Shown: piece by piece, positions 52,836 to 64,000 of the stretch | How positions within the stretch are numbered: the stretch's first letter is position 1 | How the letters are laid out: each line of letters starts with the position of its first letter | Assembly (NCBI RefSeq): GCF_003663945.1 | Contig: NZ_RCCH01000004.1 | Location: 62,001-126,000 of the forward strand | Reading direction: 5' to 3' | DNA: 64,000 bases | Source of the DNA: Lacinutrix venerupis | GTDB lineage: Bacteria; Bacteroidota; Bacteroidia; Flavobacteriales; Flavobacteriaceae | The notes under the pieces: model-generated | Told to the model about the DNA's origin: nothing | The model's database searches: none | Seen by the model: the letters and a program-made list of their open reading frames with translations, nothing else | Program-made: the position numbers and the translations under genes

Positions 52836-54098
52836 TTAGCCAAACAAGTTTAATTGGTTTGATAAGGTTTTTGTATACTTACTTTTAGAATTTTGTAATA
52901 TTAAACCTTTTATTTTTTGGGCAGTTAAATCTCTTCTTTCATACTCGTTAGAAGCACAAATAATAAAATATTTAGCTCTATTTAAGGCCACACCAATTGC
53001 TTTTAAATGTTCCCAATTTAACTTACCGTAACGCCTAGCATTTATTATTTTATAAACAGATTTCATGCCTAATCCTGGAATTCTGGCAAGCATTCGTTTT
53101 TCTGCTTTATTTACATCTATAGGAAATTCGTGAAGATTACGTAAGGCCCAACCTAGTTTTGGGTCTATATCTAAATCTAAACTTTTATGGTCGTTATTTA
53201 ATATCTCTTCTATATTAAAACCATAGAATCTCAATAACCAATCGGTTTGATACAGTCTATTCTCTCTAAGCATTGGCACTGGTGTTCCTATTTGTGGCAA
53301 TCGATTATCATAACTTATTGGTACATAGCCAGAATAATAAACACGTTTAAGATTGAAGTTTTTATAAAAATAATTAGAGGTGTACATTATCTCCATATCA
53401 TTTTCACCACTTGCACCAACAATCATTTGTGTACTTTGTCCTGCTGGTGCATATTTTGGAGTACTTTTTATTATTTTCTTTTCAGATTTATATTGAATTA
53501 TTTCATTTTTTACCTTTTTCATTGGTTTTAAAAAATCGGCTCTATTTTTATCTGGAGCTAATAATTTTAAACCTTTTTCTGTAGGAATTTCAATATTTAC
53601 ACTTAATCTATCTGCATATAAACCAGCTTCACGCATAAGCTCATCACTAGCACCTGGTATAGATTTTAAATGTATGTAGCCATTAAAATTTTCTTCTAAT
53701 CTTAATTTTTTAGCAACTGCAACTAAACGCTCCATAGTATAATCGGCGTTTTTAAATATACCCGAGCTTAAAAATAAGCCTTCAATGTAATTACGCCTAT
53801 AAAAATTTATAGTTAAATCTACTACTTCCTGAACCTTGAACGCTGCACGTTTTATATCGTTACTTTTTCTGGTAACACAATATGCACAATCAAAAATACA
53901 ATGGTTGGTTAATAATATTTTTAAGAGTGAAACACATCTTCCATCTTCGGTATATGTATGGCAAATTCCAGATGCAGATGCATCTCCTAAACCTTTATTT
54001 TTGTTAGTTCTATTGCTTCCGCTAGAAGAGCAGGACACATCGTATTTAGCGGCATCTGCAAGGATATTAAGTTTTTCTTGTACACGTTCAAAAGACAT
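52836..54098 (-). CDS. Radical SAM protein, putative DNA repair/modification (TIGR03916)
   Basis: A 420-residue radical SAM enzyme. The cluster motif is CIFDCAYC with C67, C71 and C74 (C-x3-C-x2-C). The N-terminus has ADAAKYDVSCSSSGSNR, typical of this family, and the C-terminal part ends in a helix-hairpin-helix region, LARIPGLGMKSVYKIINARRYG, which suggests direct DNA binding. It would use SAM to start radical chemistry on a DNA base or sugar, like spore photoproduct lyase. Its stop is 1 base before the DUF4130 gene starts; the pair is cotranscribed. Confidence 0.88.
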   Translation of the reverse strand: MSFERVQEKLNILADAAKYDVSCSSSGSNRTNKNKGLGDASASGICHTYTEDGRCVSLLKILLTNHCIFDCAYCVTRKSNDIKRAAFKVQEVVDLTINFYRRNYIEGLFLSSGIFKNADYTMERLVAVAKKLRLEENFNGYIHLKSIPGASDELMREAGLYADRLSVNIEIPTEKGLKLLAPDKNRADFLKPMKKVKNEIIQYKSEKKIIKSTPKYAPAGQSTQMIVGASGENDMEIMYTSNYFYKNFNLKRVYYSGYVPISYDNRLPQIGTPVPMLRENRLYQTDWLLRFYGFNIEEILNNDHKSLDLDIDPKLGWALRNLHEFPIDVNKAEKRMLARIPGLGMKSVYKIINARRYGKLNWEHLKAIGVALNRAKYFIICASNEYERRDLTAQKIKGLILQNSKSKYTKTLSNQLNLFG

Positions 54099-58139: not shown

Positions 58140-58388
58140 TTAAGCTGTAGCATTTTGTGGTGCCCAATGTGAGCATAACATACCTGGTGTTGCTTTTTGT
58201 GGATTTGCACATGTTGGACCTTGGTATCTTGCACAAGTATCACAATTAGGATCGTTTTTTAAAGCTGCTTTCATTTCAAAACTATCACAGGTGTAACTTG
58301 TACTTACTTTAACACCATGAACTTTACAGTTTTCGTTTTCTAATAAATTATCACAATTAATACAACTATTTCCTATTCTTATAGACAT
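58140..58388 (-). CDS. Small protein with duplicated four-cysteine motif
   Basis: An 82-residue cytoplasmic protein, no signal peptide. Its eight cysteines form two similar sets: C9-x2-C12-x8-C21-x12-C34 and C49-x2-C52-x7-C60-x11-C72, each followed three residues on by an aromatic residue and with a histidine near one Cys (H24, H74). The spacing indicates an internal duplication and two metal sites, Zn or Fe-S. I do not recognise a characterised family. It lies between guaB and the TonB receptor gene with its own -7 box and terminator, so it is expressed alone. Confidence 0.72.
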   Translation of the reverse strand: MSIRIGNSCINCDNLLENENCKVHGVKVSTSYTCDSFEMKAALKNDPNCDTCARYQGPTCANPQKATPGMLCSHWAPQNATA

Positions 58389-58509: not shown

Positions 58510-60951
58510 TTATATTTTTATTTGAAGTGTAGTATAAAAATTACGGTTTGCAGATGGTATAATTCCTGGTCCAGGATAACCCGTCGCGCGTCTTGTAAAA
58601 TAAGCATTATCTAACACATTATTAACTCCTGCTTCTAACTTAAAACGCTTGTATTTGTAAGAAACAGAAACGTCTAATACATCGTAACTTGGTATGGTAC
58701 CAACAATACTATTTAAATTATCGCCTCCAGGATCGTTACCAGCATCTGTAAATTGAGAAGACAAGTACGTATATTGAATGTTTGATAAAAAATTACCGTA
58801 ACCAAACTGTAGTCCTGTTTTTATATTTACATCTGGAATAAACTCTACCTTATTTCCAACACGAACATCACTACTTGTATTATCGAAATTAGTAGAGGTA
58901 TATTCTGAAGTCACAAACGAAGAATTAATAAAATAATTAGCGCTAAACTTATTATTTAAATTAAATAGTTTTTTAAGGTTAAAATCTATTAAAGATTCTA
59001 CACCAAATATTCTAGCATCACCAACATTTACTCGCAATTTACCTACGTTATTTACTGGCGGAATTGTTGCGTCTATTAAACCAATTCTATCATTATAAAA
59101 TAAGCCAAAAATATTAGCATCGTAAGATACAAATTGGTTAATATTACCTCTAACACCTAAATCTAAAGTAAAACCAGACTCGTCATCTAAATCTGGATCG
59201 ACAGCGTTAGACGGATTTACAATATTAATATCACCAAAAGTTATCGAGCGGTAATTTTGTGAAGCATTACCGTAGAACTCTAAAGCTTTTGAAGCCTTGT
59301 AGCTTAAGCCTAAACCTAAGAGTACAAAAGAACGTTCGTTTTCAATATCTTGGAACTCTACTCCTGCATCTATTGGGTTTCCTGCGCCATCAAAATTAAA
59401 TGTTTGTCTAGAACCTATACTTTCGGTTTTAATAAATTCAAAACGTGCGCCTGGCGTTACAGAAAATTTATCTGTAACATAAAATATATTTTCGCCAAAT
59501 ACTGCAATATTTAAGTTTGGATTATCGTATGCAGATTGTGTTGGGTAAAATGGGAACTCGTTTATTGCAGAATCAAAATTTGGGTCTGCACCATCGCTTC
59601 CTGGTCCTTGAGAATAGCTATTATCGGCTTTATAAAACTTACCTCCAATTAAAAATGTAGCGTCTTTATTAAACACATTATACTTAGAAAGTAATCGTGT
59701 TTCAAAACCATAGTTATTAAAATCACTACTTATTAAATCTCTTGCTCCTCCAGGATCTTCTATATCTGTACGCCTGTTTCTAAACCCTAATGCCGTTCTA
59801 TTAGCATCAAGACCAAAAGCATTAAATGTAAAGTTTGTGTTCTCTGAAAATTTATGAGATAATTTTAAATTATATAGCAACCAATCCACTTGAAACCAAT
59901 TTCGTGCTCTGTTACTTTGGTATGGATCTTCTTCAAACTGGCTATCGTTTAAACCTCCTGCTTGTTTAGCTAAATATCTTAAATAAGTAACTTCTCCTGT
60001 TAGTTTAGTTTTCTCATTAAATTGATAACCAATATGTGCAAATGCATTTTTAGATTCAAAGTTTGAGTTATCTCTAAAACCATCACCTTTTTTATAATTG
60101 AAAAATGAATAGTAACTCAACTTGTCTTTAGTACCACTTACGCTTGTAAAATTAGTGTACAAACCATTACTACCAATCGTGTTTCTTGTTATTAACTCAA
60201 AAGGTTTTGTTGCATTAGGTTCTTTCATTTTAAAATTAACCAAACCACCAAATTGCGTTCCATATTGTAAAGATGCAGCACCACGAATAATTTGCACTTC
60301 TTTTAAACCTTCGGCAGCTGGTGTATAATAACTTTCTGGATAGCCTAAAACATCTGCACTAATATCGTAACCATTTTGTCTGGTATTAAAACTTGCTGTA
60401 CGGTTTGGATCTAAACCACGACCACCAATATTTAACTGTAAACCTGCATCGTCGTTTTGATAAATGTTTAAACCAGAAACTTGACTATAAATTTGTCTTG
60501 CGTTGTTAGACGCTAAACTTGCCATAGATTGTTCTACTAAAACAACTTCGGTTTTTTTACCTGCATAAATTGCTGTTCCTTCAACATCTTTTAAGCGTTT
60601 TAGAGCAAACACTTTTGCTTCTCTAGAAGATATTTCTACTTCAGATAGTGTTTCGGCTAAAGGCACTAACTTAACGTCAATGGTACTGTTACCTGTTACT
60701 GCTTGCTCTACAACCTCGTAATTGTAAGAGAAAAATACAATGGTAATATTTTGCTTTTCGATTTCAAATTCAAAAAAACCAGAGGCATTTGTTCTGGTTA
60801 ACAATCCTGCATCCTTATCGTAAACCTCAACGTTTACAATAGGTTGGTTGCTAGAAGCATCTGTAATTGTTCCTGAAATTTTGTTTTGAGCAATGGCTAT
60901 ACTTGCTATTAAAAAACAAATGAAAAATAATTTATAATCCTTTAATATCAT
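58510..60951 (-). CDS. TonB-dependent outer-membrane receptor (FecA-like)
   Basis: An 813-residue receptor. The order is a signal peptide (1-21), a carboxypeptidase-regulatory-like domain (about 24-95: KISGTITDASSNQPIVNVEV), a plug domain with VEGTAIYAGKKTEVVLVEQSMASLASNNARQIYSQVSGLNIYQ, GLDPNRT and EVQIIRGAASLQYGTQFGGLVNF, and a 22-strand barrel ending in TTLQIKI. The plug wording is close to iron(III) dicitrate-type receptors. The ligand is not decided; an iron chelate fits the imelysin neighbour. Its start lies inside the HTTM gene (20-base overlap), so the two are coupled. Confidence 0.92.
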   Translation of the reverse strand: MILKDYKLFFICFLIASIAIAQNKISGTITDASSNQPIVNVEVYDKDAGLLTRTNASGFFEFEIEKQNITIVFFSYNYEVVEQAVTGNSTIDVKLVPLAETLSEVEISSREAKVFALKRLKDVEGTAIYAGKKTEVVLVEQSMASLASNNARQIYSQVSGLNIYQNDDAGLQLNIGGRGLDPNRTASFNTRQNGYDISADVLGYPESYYTPAAEGLKEVQIIRGAASLQYGTQFGGLVNFKMKEPNATKPFELITRNTIGSNGLYTNFTSVSGTKDKLSYYSFFNYKKGDGFRDNSNFESKNAFAHIGYQFNEKTKLTGEVTYLRYLAKQAGGLNDSQFEEDPYQSNRARNWFQVDWLLYNLKLSHKFSENTNFTFNAFGLDANRTALGFRNRRTDIEDPGGARDLISSDFNNYGFETRLLSKYNVFNKDATFLIGGKFYKADNSYSQGPGSDGADPNFDSAINEFPFYPTQSAYDNPNLNIAVFGENIFYVTDKFSVTPGARFEFIKTESIGSRQTFNFDGAGNPIDAGVEFQDIENERSFVLLGLGLSYKASKALEFYGNASQNYRSITFGDINIVNPSNAVDPDLDDESGFTLDLGVRGNINQFVSYDANIFGLFYNDRIGLIDATIPPVNNVGKLRVNVGDARIFGVESLIDFNLKKLFNLNNKFSANYFINSSFVTSEYTSTNFDNTSSDVRVGNKVEFIPDVNIKTGLQFGYGNFLSNIQYTYLSSQFTDAGNDPGGDNLNSIVGTIPSYDVLDVSVSYKYKRFKLEAGVNNVLDNAYFTRRATGYPGPGIIPSANRNFYTTLQIKI

Positions 60952-62293
60952 CGTTAAATGGTAAAATCCAAGCTTTGGGTTTAAATGTTTCTTTTTCGGC
61001 GTACAAATTTACGGTTTCATCTACAAATGGCGCACTTAATCTTCCGTTTAATGCAACATAACTTTTAGCATATACTTCTACGTGTTCATGACCTTGTTTT
61101 TTAAAATGGTCGCCAAGAAAATGTGCATATTCTAAAATAAAATCTGGCTGAAAACTCATTTGCTTTTCTTGTAATGGTGTTAAAAAATCATCGTTTTGTA
61201 CGTAAAAAAATCCTTTTGTTTTTCCGTTTACAATTTTAAATGTGGTGCTTCCCATTTTCTCCATTAACATCACACGCCATGAAAACCTATAACCTTCTTC
61301 GGTCCAAAATAATTCGCCTGGATATAGCAAATAGCGAAAAGGAATGAGTAATTGCAAAACAAAAAACAGAGTAATAACTGGTAACACTAGTGTTTTTCTT
61401 TTTACTATAAACACTTCTTTTATTTGTATCGCTTTCGCGGAAGGAATTCGTAATCCTTTTTTAATAACGCTTATTATTTTATTATGAAAGTTAGCATCAA
61501 AGAAAATGAGCGCACTAACAATCATGACATACGGAAACATCCCGATTGGGAATAATACTCTTGTAAATACATGAAATATAACAACCAATACAAAAGCGAA
61601 ACCGCGTGTTTTTTTATAAAGCAGTAAAAACGGAATGCATAAATCGTACAACATACCAGACCAACTCATAGCAAAGTGAAACCAATTTTGGTGCATTAAA
61701 CTTTCGCCTATAAACGGAATATCATACTTAGATGGTAACCATGTTTTTAATGGTTGTGCTTTTAATAACCAATCGCTATTAATTTTAGCTAATCCAGCGT
61801 AAAAATAGACAATACCTAATAGCAGTTTAACACTATCTATTGTCCATCGTGGTATGTTTTTATATTGAATTTTATTACGGTAAGCATCTATAGAGAAATA
61901 TGCATTTGCTGGTAAAAAAATCATGAGGAAGCTTAAAACGCTTATAAAATAGTAATGGTTTAAATACGTAGTTTTCTCCATTAATTCTATATAAGTAAAG
62001 CTTAAAAAGAAGGCAATAATAGCTAGTCTATATTTAAAACCAAGCGCCACTAAAAGCGAAGCGATGCCGCAGATAATAAATAAAACATAGGTATAATTAC
62101 CTAACGTTTTTACCCACTCGAAACCGTAGTATTTAAAATGAAATTGCGGTTGTATGTAAACAGTTTCTATCCAACCTTTTGCCCAATAACGAATAATACT
62201 GTACAACATCATTAAACCAAAACCTATACGAAATACAGCTAAAGGTGCGGCATTTGTAGTTGCGTTTAGGTATGATTTAATTTTGCTATTCAT
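60932..62293 (-). CDS. HTTM domain membrane protein (vitamin K-dependent carboxylase-like)
   Basis: A 453-residue protein of the HTTM family, related to vitamin K-dependent gamma-carboxylase. Several membrane helices lie in the first 320 residues (for example VLFIICGIASLLVALGF and FAMSWSGMLYDLCIPFLLLY), then a C-terminal extracytoplasmic part with WTEEGYRFSWRVMLMEKMGSTTFKIVN. Bacterial members may carboxylate peptides or act on lipids; none is proven here. It overlaps the TonB receptor by 20 bases and is preceded, 5 bases before its start, by a terminator-like hairpin and T-run. Confidence 0.85.
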   Translation of the reverse strand: MNSKIKSYLNATTNAAPLAVFRIGFGLMMLYSIIRYWAKGWIETVYIQPQFHFKYYGFEWVKTLGNYTYVLFIICGIASLLVALGFKYRLAIIAFFLSFTYIELMEKTTYLNHYYFISVLSFLMIFLPANAYFSIDAYRNKIQYKNIPRWTIDSVKLLLGIVYFYAGLAKINSDWLLKAQPLKTWLPSKYDIPFIGESLMHQNWFHFAMSWSGMLYDLCIPFLLLYKKTRGFAFVLVVIFHVFTRVLFPIGMFPYVMIVSALIFFDANFHNKIISVIKKGLRIPSAKAIQIKEVFIVKRKTLVLPVITLFFVLQLLIPFRYLLYPGELFWTEEGYRFSWRVMLMEKMGSTTFKIVNGKTKGFFYVQNDDFLTPLQEKQMSFQPDFILEYAHFLGDHFKKQGHEHVEVYAKSYVALNGRLSAPFVDETVNLYAEKETFKPKAWILPFNDDIKGL

Positions 62294-62298
62294 AATGC

Positions 62299-62335
62299 AA
62301 AAAAAAGGTTGCCCGTTTAAATAGACAACCTTTTT
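62299..62335 (-). terminator. Terminator or attenuator between imelysin and HTTM genes
   Basis: A 10-base stem (62302-62311 with 62326-62335, GGTTG pairing CAACC) with a 14-base loop and eight T on the - strand. The T-run ends 5 bases before the HTTM ATG. No promoter box lies in between, so HTTM and the receptor would depend on read-through. Confidence 0.75.
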
Positions 62336-62353
62336 ATTAAATTTATTTTAATG

Positions 62354-63451
62354 TTAATCACCATCATTATCTTCAAATGCAATAGATATATTAAAAACTG
62401 AAATCATATCAGATTTTAGTGATACTACAGCTAGTTGTATAGCATCGTAAGCTTCAGTCATTTTTGTATTATCTGTTTCTATTTGAGATTTAAAATTTGC
62501 GTTTAATGCTTCAATTTTAGTTCTTGCTGCATCAAAACGGTTGTTTATAACTTCGGCTAAATCATTTCTATCTAAAGCTATTAAATAGTTTTTATAGCTT
62601 TCTCCTTCAGCATCGCTATTAATTGCTTTACCATTAAAAACATCTTGCACTGAATTTAGTGCTTCTAATAATAATGTTTTAGAGTCTTCTTCTTTATGTA
62701 AAGCTTCTATTTTAGATGGTAATGCCGTGCTAGAAAAAACACCTGCTGGAATACCTACCTTATCTGCTCTAAGGCGTTTTTCGTAATAATAAACATAGGC
62801 ATTTAAGGTTTGGTTTACTGCTCCAGATGCTACGTTAGCTGTGTTTGTAATGTAGTTATCTCTGTAACCTGAAGTCCAATCTGTTAAAACAGTATTGGTT
62901 AGTGTTTGCATTCTATCTATTAAATCTGAAAGGTAAGTACTATAATTAGTATTAGATAAAGTCGTTAAAATAGCGGCATCGTTATCTGCAACACCATATA
63001 ACATATAATCTACTGCAGGAAAACCAACAGCATCGTTATTATTTACGCTTGATAAATCGTAGTTACCATTGGCAATATTGTTTTCAATATCTGTAGTATT
63101 GGTTGGGTAGATATTCATTTGTTCTTCAAACAAAATCTCTTCTGCTTTACCAATTTGAAACATTTGCACTCTTTGAAACGATTGGTAAGCGTTAAACCAA
63201 TGGGTTCTTAAGGTTTCTAAATTTGTTTGATTTACATTGGCTACAAATGTATTTTTAGAGTCTACTAAAGTACTTAACTCTGCACTTAAATTTTGATAGC
63301 CAGGAATAATAATGTTATCGGCAATGTTTGTAAGCATTGCTGTTCTATTGTAAGTGTCATTGGTAACGCTTCCTGAGTTAGAATCGTCTGAACTTGAACA
63401 AGCAAAAATTGCAGCTGCTATTAGTACTACTATTAATATTCTTTTAAACAT
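62354..63451 (-). CDS. Imelysin-like lipoprotein (IrpA family)
   Basis: A 365-residue periplasmic lipoprotein with signal MFKRILIVVLIAAAIFAC (Cys18) and a Ser/Asp linker. The all-helical body has the imelysin HWFNAYQSFQRVQMFQIG segment and GFPAVDYMLYG (143-153), where the family's GxHxxE motif would lie, with Pro and Asp in place of His and Glu. Homologues are iron-regulated surface proteins whose exact role is debated. It is followed by HTTM and the TonB receptor, and by DUF4856 upstream. A -7 box and inverted repeat precede it. Confidence 0.85.
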   Translation of the reverse strand: MFKRILIVVLIAAAIFACSSSDDSNSGSVTNDTYNRTAMLTNIADNIIIPGYQNLSAELSTLVDSKNTFVANVNQTNLETLRTHWFNAYQSFQRVQMFQIGKAEEILFEEQMNIYPTNTTDIENNIANGNYDLSSVNNNDAVGFPAVDYMLYGVADNDAAILTTLSNTNYSTYLSDLIDRMQTLTNTVLTDWTSGYRDNYITNTANVASGAVNQTLNAYVYYYEKRLRADKVGIPAGVFSSTALPSKIEALHKEEDSKTLLLEALNSVQDVFNGKAINSDAEGESYKNYLIALDRNDLAEVINNRFDAARTKIEALNANFKSQIETDNTKMTEAYDAIQLAVVSLKSDMISVFNISIAFEDNDGD

Positions 63452-63472
63452 ATTATTCTTTTATTTAATTTG

Positions 63473-63480
63473 CAAAAATA
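63473..63480 (-). promoter_or_regulatory. -7 promoter box of the imelysin gene
   Basis: TATTTTTG on the - strand, 22 bases before the ATG at 63451, an exact TAnnTTTG match. Just upstream is an imperfect inverted repeat at 63483-63517. Confidence 0.45.
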
Positions 63481-63482
63481 AT

Positions 63483-63517
63483 AAATAGCAGCTTCCTAAA
63501 AAAGGAGGCCACTATTT
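63483..63517. repeat. Imperfect inverted repeat in the imelysin promoter region
   Basis: Arms AAATAG-CA-GCTTCCT (63483-63497) and AGGAGGC-CA-CTATTT (63503-63517) pair over 6 and 7 bases with a 2x2 internal loop and one G-T pair. It covers the region where the -33 element should be, so it may be an operator, or the end of the DUF4856 transcript. Confidence 0.45.
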
Positions 63518-63537
63518 AAAAAACTAACCTTCAAAAA

Positions 63538-64000
63538 TTAACTTCCTGTTTGTCCAGTTGTAAAACTAAACTCTGCTGAAATGGCATTAGATATAGTATC
63601 TAAAGTTTCTGCTGTAACATCCCAAAAACCATTACCACTCATTAATGTTGTTGTAAAAGCATCAACTTCTGCTTTTGTAAAATATGGTTCGTTTGTACCT
63701 GGCTTTCTTGTAAATTGTAAGCTATATACAAACCCGTATCCTTCTGATAAATCATGAAAAGCAGAAGCCCAATCTGAACCTAAACCTGTTTTTCCTTGTT
63801 GTAAATAATATACTGCTCTAACACCTATTACTTGAGATATTTTCTCTCTAATTATCTGTGCTTGTGCATCACGTACATCGTAATTTTTAGCAACAATTGC
63901 GGCACGACCTAATTTAAATGCATTGTAAACATCCATTGCTATACCTGCAAAATCGTCGTCTCCTTCTACTCTAGATAAGTATTTATTTAAAAAGTTATCT
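63538..64000 (-). CDS. DUF4856 family protein, 3' part
   Basis: The frame stays open to the end of the window, so the N-terminus is missing; the in-window part encodes about 153 residues (DNFLNKYLSRVEGDDDFAG continuing to TTGQTGS). The GRAAIVAKNYDVRDAQAQIIREKIS segment and SDWASAFHDLSEGYGFVYSLQFTR are DUF4856 landmarks. I know these proteins as extracytoplasmic neighbours of imelysins in Bacteroidota; the imelysin-like helical fold is inferred. It lies upstream of the imelysin gene on the same strand, with an 86-base gap that holds an inverted repeat and a -7 box. Confidence 0.78.
   Translation of the reverse strand, partial: DNFLNKYLSRVEGDDDFAGIAMDVYNAFKLGRAAIVAKNYDVRDAQAQIIREKISQVIGVRAVYYLQQGKTGLGSDWASAFHDLSEGYGFVYSLQFTRKPGTNEPYFTKAEVDAFTTTLMSGNGFWDVTAETLDTISNAISAEFSFTTGQTGS

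Follow-up and report, generated by a model that had tools for sequence, protein, structure and literature searches.

A homologue of human gamma-glutamyl carboxylase in a conserved, predicted iron-starvation operon of Bacteroidota

At one end of a 64,000-nucleotide stretch of the Lacinutrix venerupis genome (RefSeq assembly GCF_003663945.1, contig NZ_RCCH01000004.1, positions 62,001 to 126,000 of the forward strand; below called the window, whose own numbering is used) lies a four-gene operon, in which the gene of an HTTM-domain protein stands between those of two lipoproteins, a DUF4856 protein and an imelysin, and that of a FecA-like TonB-dependent receptor. By homology the HTTM protein belongs with human gamma-glutamyl carboxylase (GGCX), and its active site is conserved. 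The arrangement of the four genes is not due to chance and an iron role of the operon is well supported. Many Bacteroidota carry a relative of the vitamin K enzyme that activates human clotting factors in what appears to be an iron-starvation gene set. We propose, with a probability of about 0.5, that iron starvation induces the operon and that its carboxylase, using menaquinol, acts on a partner protein that is exported, the imelysin being the best candidate.

Gene order and its conservation

The four genes follow each other on the minus strand in the order given here, where VKGC denotes the vitamin K-dependent gamma-carboxylase homologue:

63538-64000, minus strand: DUF4856 lipoprotein, first gene of the operon (PF16148, E 1.9e-66 on the part in the window)
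62354-63451, minus strand: imelysin-like lipoprotein (M75), 365 amino acids (PF09375, E 1.4e-33)
60932-62293, minus strand: VKGC homologue with HTTM and lumenal domains, 453 amino acids (PF05090, E 3.1e-79; PF22777, VKGC_lumenal_dom, E 4.9e-59)
58510-60951, minus strand: FecA-like TonB-dependent receptor, 813 amino acids (PF00593, E 4.7e-30; PF07715; PF13715)

An initial annotation, made from the sequence alone, had described this order on one strand and an overlap of 20 bases between the last two genes. The coordinates and the Pfam matches bore out the order, and the overlap is exact (60932-60951). The gaps between the other genes are short, 86 nucleotides between DUF4856 and imelysin and 60 nucleotides between imelysin and VKGC. 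The end of the window truncates the DUF4856 gene, of whose 402 codons only the C-terminal 153 are included; the complete gene is found in the adjoining sequence of this contig (L002:13538-14746, 402 amino acids). The receptor consists of an N-terminal CarbopepD_reg_2 domain, a plug and a TonB barrel, and shares plug and beta-barrel with the FecA-type receptors. FecA (1pnz) is its best sequence match in the PDB (E 7.9e-14) and the nearest solved structure by this measure, with a match that spans only residues 132-386 of the receptor. The N-terminal domain of FecA is a signalling domain, in the place of which the Lacinutrix receptor has CarbopepD_reg_2.

To see how widely the arrangement occurs, we took an even draw of 198 Bacteroidota genomes and searched the surroundings of each VKGC_lumenal_dom match with profiles built on the proteins of the window. 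The domain gave 53 matches in 46 of the genomes. The complete order DUF4856-imelysin-VKGC-receptor was present on one strand in 38 of the 53 loci, which span 12 families by a hand tally of family labels; two loci had imelysin, VKGC and receptor without DUF4856, and in 13 the VKGC was solitary. The idea that these genes form a system thus survived comparison with other genomes. Where a Pfam match to DUF4856 was found (33 genomes), it was inside the operon in all but two, the exceptions being a stand-alone gene (L088) and a pair in which DUF4856 is accompanied only by a FecA-like receptor (L089:7203-11079), with neither imelysin nor VKGC in the stretch read. The latter pair points to a joint role of DUF4856 and the receptor.

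A second set of loci, the best 80 of 569 relatives in named genomes, is an uneven sample, nearly all flavobacterial by title, unlike the 53-locus set. Here the full order was found in 73 of 80 loci, one of them (L129) counted although its receptor gene is broken into two frames. The operon is also present in Bizionia argentinensis JUB59 (L113), a marine flavobacterium with a published deletion mutant. The other seven comprised three contig-end truncations, one locus with a ferritin-like gene at the place of DUF4856, and three rearranged loci of Tenacibaculum. In these last (L159:2984-11602, L161 and L166) the order is DUF4856, imelysin, receptor, VKGC. L159 has, in addition, a gene of the fatty-acid-hydroxylase family after the imelysin and before the receptor, and behind VKGC one for an ABC solute-binding protein.

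A plasmid of Persicobacter psychrovividus carries yet another combination (L172:3207-8320): a canonical imelysin, a di-haem-oxidoreductase-like gene recognised by eye, a second imelysin and VKGC, the frames of the last two overlapping as read from the longest open reading frame (ORF). Neither DUF4856 nor the receptor was detected in the 15 kb read around this cluster. As Persicobacter keeps the imelysin-VKGC pair without the other two genes, this pair seems to form the core around which the genes are associated. VKGC was found on four plasmid records, and of the three examined, those of Paracoccus and Bernardetia had it as a stand-alone gene and that of Persicobacter had it clustered.

Solitary VKGC genes have neighbours of their own. 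The second VKGC of the L. venerupis genome (L006:8372-9682, contig C3) is situated directly behind ribF, identified by eye as riboflavin kinase / flavin adenine dinucleotide synthetase, which it adjoins or overlaps. The same junction was seen in 7 of the 12 other solitary loci (L063, L064, L069, L071, L072, L080, L081), and relatives of a large gene, by eye secreted metalloprotease-like, are near five of the ribF-VKGC loci. In genome G108 (L066:7915-9285, with L174) a VKGC of the operon type, 57% identical to the window protein, stands alone, and the imelysins of this genome are located elsewhere, with di-haem oxidoreductase.

Homology of the HTTM protein to human gamma-glutamyl carboxylase

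The HTTM protein scored 266.7 bits with PF05090 and 199.1 bits with PF22777. All its sequence matches in the PDB up to E 0.001 were human GGCX (8 distinct sequences, best E 5.4e-40), and residues 6-449 aligned with human residues 52-508, with 126 of the 436 aligned positions identical. The fold is shared as well: an AlphaFold2 (AF2) model, with a predicted local distance difference test score (pLDDT) of 81, gave 16 Foldseek matches with E < 0.001, all of them GGCX (TM-score by query 0.60-0.80). Comparison of individual residues, whose roles were taken from the available part of PMC12589487, showed that the catalytic base K218 corresponds to K170 of the window protein, and that N159, H160 and Y395, by which the substrate glutamate is held at its side chain, correspond to N112, H113 and Y335. 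Six of the seven residues of the quinone-ring pocket (F286, F294, F299, H160, V210, M401, W223) are identical, M401 being replaced by V. Altogether K218, N159, H160, Y395, F286, F294, F299, V210, W223, A214, G259 and M402 of the human enzyme are conserved in the window protein. K170, N112 and H113 were invariant in all 30 aligned bacterial proteins, which include paralogues encoded outside the operon. The term "gamma-carboxylase-like" used in the initial annotation was right and, as the catalytic residues and most of the ring-pocket residues of GGCX are kept, an understatement.

On this basis VKGC is predicted to be a menaquinol-dependent gamma-glutamyl carboxylase of the inner membrane. The L. 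venerupis genome has menD, thus menaquinone can be made. We also tried to approach oxygen dependence through co-occurrence with haem-copper oxidase, which had no power since such oxidases are present in 189 of the 198 genomes.

A 2005 study reportedly described an altered activity of the VKGC homologue of Leptospira. That protein is a bacterial GGCX homologue presumed to have been acquired horizontally, according to the accessible text of PMC4555120. Bacterial VKGC homologues are widespread, and in the literature searched we found none with a demonstrated physiological role; the VKGC described here is set in a regulated operon beside a partner that hardly changes, and leads to a prediction exact enough to be tested.

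Probable iron regulation of the operon

The yardstick for regulatory sites was the Fur box of a study on Riemerella anatipestifer (PMC5609570, available in part), scored over 19 bases with a cut-off of at least 15 matches. Of 111 operons, 106 have a Fur-box-like site of this quality upstream of the DUF4856 gene. The same was true of 36 of 897 control ORFs, which are mechanical ORFs of at least 200 amino acids from the same loci, many of them with coding sequence before them. The mean G+C content of the upstream regions was 27% for the operons and 35% for the control ORFs; random sequences matched in composition, the fairer control, reached the cut-off in 3.3% of cases. Elsewhere in the operon the same cut-off was reached upstream of the imelysin gene in 28/116, of VKGC in 2/118 and of the receptor gene in 0/118 cases. 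In L. venerupis the best site, ATTTAAATTTAATCTAAAT (16/19), lies outside the window, with a second similar site closer to the start codon, and the genome encodes two Fur-family proteins. We consider the Fur-box-like site a predicted regulatory site of the operon.

Expression data exist for a similar run of genes in R. anatipestifer. Four genes with successive locus tags (RAYM_09779-09794, in steps of five) are annotated as TonB receptor, vitamin K-dependent gamma-carboxylase, imelysin and hypothetical protein; iron restriction raised them with ratios of 2.11, 2.64, 3.07 and 2.41, respectively, and they were placed in the table of Fur-regulated genes (PMC5609570). The hypothetical gene, identified by position without comparison of its sequence, is probably DUF4856. 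In the available portion of that article the four genes appear as table rows, with one sentence on the receptor, and are not treated as a system. These rows are the nearest prior record of the operon, and they modify the view of the initial annotation that the HTTM protein has no known place in iron uptake: the table of 2017 already lists a vitamin K-dependent gamma-carboxylase as iron-responsive, in the portion at hand without comment. In the literature searched, where subscription journals were little covered and a description elsewhere is possible, we found no description of the operon as a system and no paper mentioning DUF4856. A Bizionia study on MliR, accessible in part, was not used as regulatory support because the locus tag of its imelysin-like gene was not identified.

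Neighbouring genes also point to iron. Among 118 loci, a haem-binding-domain protein was found in 20, ferritin in 9, an ABC solute-binding protein in 10 and an ABC permease in 7, the ABC proteins being called ferric by reading of their sequences only; the 30 commonest neighbour families were judged by eye from partial sequences, and 8 of them were checked by Pfam. The Fur-box-like sites, the Riemerella response, the FecA match and these neighbours make iron the most likely transported metal. The earlier suggestion of a poorly described metal-uptake system is supported as far as metal uptake is concerned; nothing that we met supports copper, for which no specific test was made.

The imelysin partner, the proposed mechanism and its alternatives

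The profile of the window imelysin's family matched the PDB entries 3n8u, 3pf0 and 4ecg, with 3pf0 aligned over profile positions 34-369. In the alignment the GxHxxE motif, which marks canonical imelysins and the IrpA family, is replaced by GFPAVD in the window protein, which ends in DNDGD. Among 118 VKGC-linked imelysins, P occupied the position of the motif His in 97 and D that of the motif Glu in 109, whereas the Glu was kept in all 26 other imelysins compared, a group that includes a VKGC-adjacent Persicobacter protein and one partial frame (L117:13186). The IPPA family, as far as its published description was available, likewise lacks the motif His.

We compared the positions of imelysin, VKGC and di-haem oxidoreductase (PF06537) genes in the same 198 genomes, with an adjacency limit of 3.5 kb chosen by us. 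In the 56 imelysins counted (a 57th, weak partial match, G105:C3 with 21.5 bits, was left out), 39 were within this distance of VKGC, 16 were beside a di-haem oxidoreductase without VKGC, and one, at a contig end, was beside neither. One of the 39 (G154) is also 3.0 kb from an oxidoreductase of the neighbouring operon. The 13 highest-scoring imelysins all have GxHxxE and adjoin the oxidoreductase, none of them VKGC. Conversely, 33 of the 39 genomes with a VKGC-linked imelysin carry none of the 13 imelysin-adjacent full-length oxidoreductases, and the L. venerupis genome has no PF06537 match. VKGC thus seems to replace the usual peroxidase partner of imelysins. The operon shares with the EfeUOB and imelysin-peroxidase loci (EfeO-EfeB; P. 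aeruginosa PA4370-PA4373) an imelysin lipoprotein with a partner enzyme in an iron-regulated operon, and differs from them in having VKGC in the place of the DUF1111-type (di-haem) peroxidase, in the added DUF4856 and TonB receptor genes, and in the loss of GxHxxE, which in our sample accompanied the di-haem oxidoreductase in 13 of 13 cases.

Two glutamates are conserved in the linked imelysins, E224 (117/118) and E249 (118/118). E249 aligns with Glu137 of PIBO, a residue of the putative functional site (offset 23 from His368 and Glu371, same chain) according to the part of the source that was accessible, and the corresponding position is A in IPPA (3pf0). We regard E249 as a candidate for modification, no more.

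Both lipoproteins begin, as read from the sequence, with an acidic stretch after the lipid-bearing cysteine: SCSSDDD in the DUF4856 protein (lipobox Cys19, followed by SSDDD) and ACSSSDD in the imelysin. A regular expression recognised a lipobox in 87 of 111 DUF4856 proteins and in 85 of 118 imelysins, and at least two D/E residues at positions +2 to +6 were present in 67 and 46 of these, respectively. An acid-rich export signal following the lipid cysteine is known from surface-exported Bacteroidota lipoproteins (PMC5080379, in the part available). An AF2 model of a Lacinutrix DUF4856 homologue is mostly helical (pLDDT 92.8). With this model Foldseek gave no match better than E 1.5; in a second structure comparison the best match was an alpha-catenin-type M domain with Z 7.8, within the range for which a warning applies to helical bundles, and imelysin 3n8u scored Z 5.7 (135 aligned residues, 18% identity). 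Since this fold match is weak, a profile comparison of DUF4856 with imelysin aligned signal peptides only and a profile search of the PDB sequences found nothing, we do not claim DUF4856 as an imelysin relative.

What the computation establishes is the operon with its conservation, the Fur-box-like sites, the homology to GGCX and the kept active site; from these data we infer the activity, topology and substrate of the enzyme, the transported complex and the order of events as follows. Iron starvation would switch the operon on, with Fur as a likely, perhaps not the only, regulator. The FecA-like receptor would carry a ferric complex across the outer membrane, and the DUF4856 and imelysin lipoproteins, many of which are acid-rich after the lipid cysteine, may bind or hand over iron or its carrier. 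While being exported, these lipoproteins would come past the inner membrane on its periplasmic side. There VKGC, predicted to be a membrane protein with a periplasmic active site, could use menaquinol, O2 and CO2 to turn at least one glutamate of an exported partner into gamma-carboxyglutamate (Gla). The lipoproteins and the receptor would then capture and import the ferric complex. The imelysin, the most constant neighbour of VKGC, is the likeliest substrate. Gamma-carboxyglutamate chelates hard metal ions better than glutamate does. A more specific version, which we put forward tentatively and would call possible rather than probable, is that the iron site of imelysins is built by a dedicated modifying enzyme, which would be the di-haem oxidoreductase in one class (in this role it would resemble MauG) and the menaquinol-dependent carboxylase in the other, where carboxylation of E249 would place a chelating gamma-carboxyglutamate in the site. 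If VKGC carboxylates its partner, the vitamin K reaction gains a bacterial function, in iron capture, and simpler enzymes become available for its study; if the reading of E249 is true, there is a physiological Gla protein in bacteria, which would suggest that bacterial vitamin K carboxylation serves metal capture.

It must be noted that several of our observations, and some of the published ones, speak against the proposed carboxylation or against its link to iron. In the enzyme, Y335 varies: some members of the operon family have F there, and certain paralogues have H. Only two of the six residues of the isoprenoid tunnel (A214, G258, G259, V254, V255, N290) are kept, namely A214 and G259; the bacterial quinone may have a different tail, and human GGCX with the N290W substitution kept partial activity (PMC12589487, in the part accessible). 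The backbone residues N158 and R436 are changed to L and Q, K217 is changed to A, M401 is the altered pocket residue mentioned above, and the C99-C450 disulphide is missing, with F at both positions. The alignment stops at human residue 508, and the later residues, among them those of PBD-2 and the arch, have no counterparts. Because the alignment ends before the parts assigned to PBD-2 and the arch (available text of PMC12589487), any substrate is probably recognised differently, and because these parts and the disulphide are features of the human enzyme, we call the protein a homologue and not a GGCX. A VKOR for recycling of the epoxide was not found (no PF07884 match in the L. venerupis genome), and the setting, a bacterial operon, also sets the protein apart from human GGCX. 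The active-site residues are equally conserved in paralogues outside the operon, therefore they do not by themselves tie VKGC to iron. On the side of the substrate, none of the operon's partner proteins has a conspicuous glutamate-rich, Gla-domain-like stretch, and conservation gave no clean VKGC-specific substrate glutamate, the position of E249 being E also in 10 of the 26 other imelysins. As to regulation, the iron response of the four Riemerella genes persists in a fur deletion (2.70, 2.77, 2.92, 3.07), the deletion has a small effect with iron present (1.90, 1.39, 1.93, 1.36), and the Fur-box table of PMC5609570 lacks all four, which is why Fur is perhaps not the sole regulator.

The strongest rival to carboxylation is a role of VKGC as a redox enzyme dependent on menaquinol and O2, which would replace the di-haem peroxidase, for instance in changing the oxidation state of iron or in breaking its carrier, and would make no gamma-carboxyglutamate. 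The distribution of partners agrees with this: 55 of 56 imelysins have either VKGC (39) or the oxidoreductase only (16), the 13 top-scoring GxHxxE imelysins all fall on the oxidoreductase side, PF06537 is missing from the L. venerupis genome, and the quinone-ring pocket is largely kept. However, the counterparts of the glutamate-holding residues N159, H160 and Y395 are present, N112 and H113 without variation, the sequence of VKGC has no CxxCH haem motif, and Persicobacter has both enzymes in one cluster, which means that the two are not strictly interchangeable. The peroxidase-or-VKGC split fits both explanations, and it is the conservation of the glutamate-holding residues that makes us favour carboxylation and consider a purely redox role doubtful. 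Such a role would help to explain peroxidase-free imelysin systems; either way, the split offers an entry point to what imelysins do, a question still unsolved.

The initial annotation had suggested that the HTTM protein modifies a carrier peptide or lipid. Stated more broadly, the substrate of VKGC would be an iron-carrying small molecule, peptide or lipid and not an operon protein, as is assumed for HTTM proteins in linaridin maturation. HTTM proteins do occur in peptide-maturation clusters (PMC9927463, in the part available), and the propeptide-binding elements of the human enzyme are partly missing from VKGC, but the intergenic gaps of 86 and 60 nucleotides leave little room for a peptide gene, and the 30 commonest neighbour families, examined as described above, yielded no recognisable gene for a non-ribosomal peptide synthetase or a siderophore; the suggestion found no support and we think it improbable. 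That the operon serves another metal or metal complex (copper, zinc, manganese) appears more improbable still: the substrate of the receptor is a matter of prediction and its FecA match is partial, yet the Fur-box-like sites, the Riemerella iron response and the ABC solute-binding and ferritin neighbours all favour iron. It is very improbable that the four genes are just a stable neighbourhood without joint function. Flanking housekeeping genes are common to many loci, too, but the commonest flanking family occurs in only 63 of 118 loci, whereas the four genes stay together across phylum-wide family labels and the rearrangements in Persicobacter and Tenacibaculum keep subsets of them together.

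Two further genes of the window can be mentioned. Just downstream of the operon a small cysteine-rich ORF of 82 amino acids (58140-58388, minus strand) has CxxC-like pairs and no Pfam match. A protein of 420 amino acids (52836-54098, minus strand) with a CxxxCxxC-like motif and a helix-hairpin-helix-like end is, as judged by eye, of the radical S-adenosylmethionine type, of a DNA modification or repair kind.

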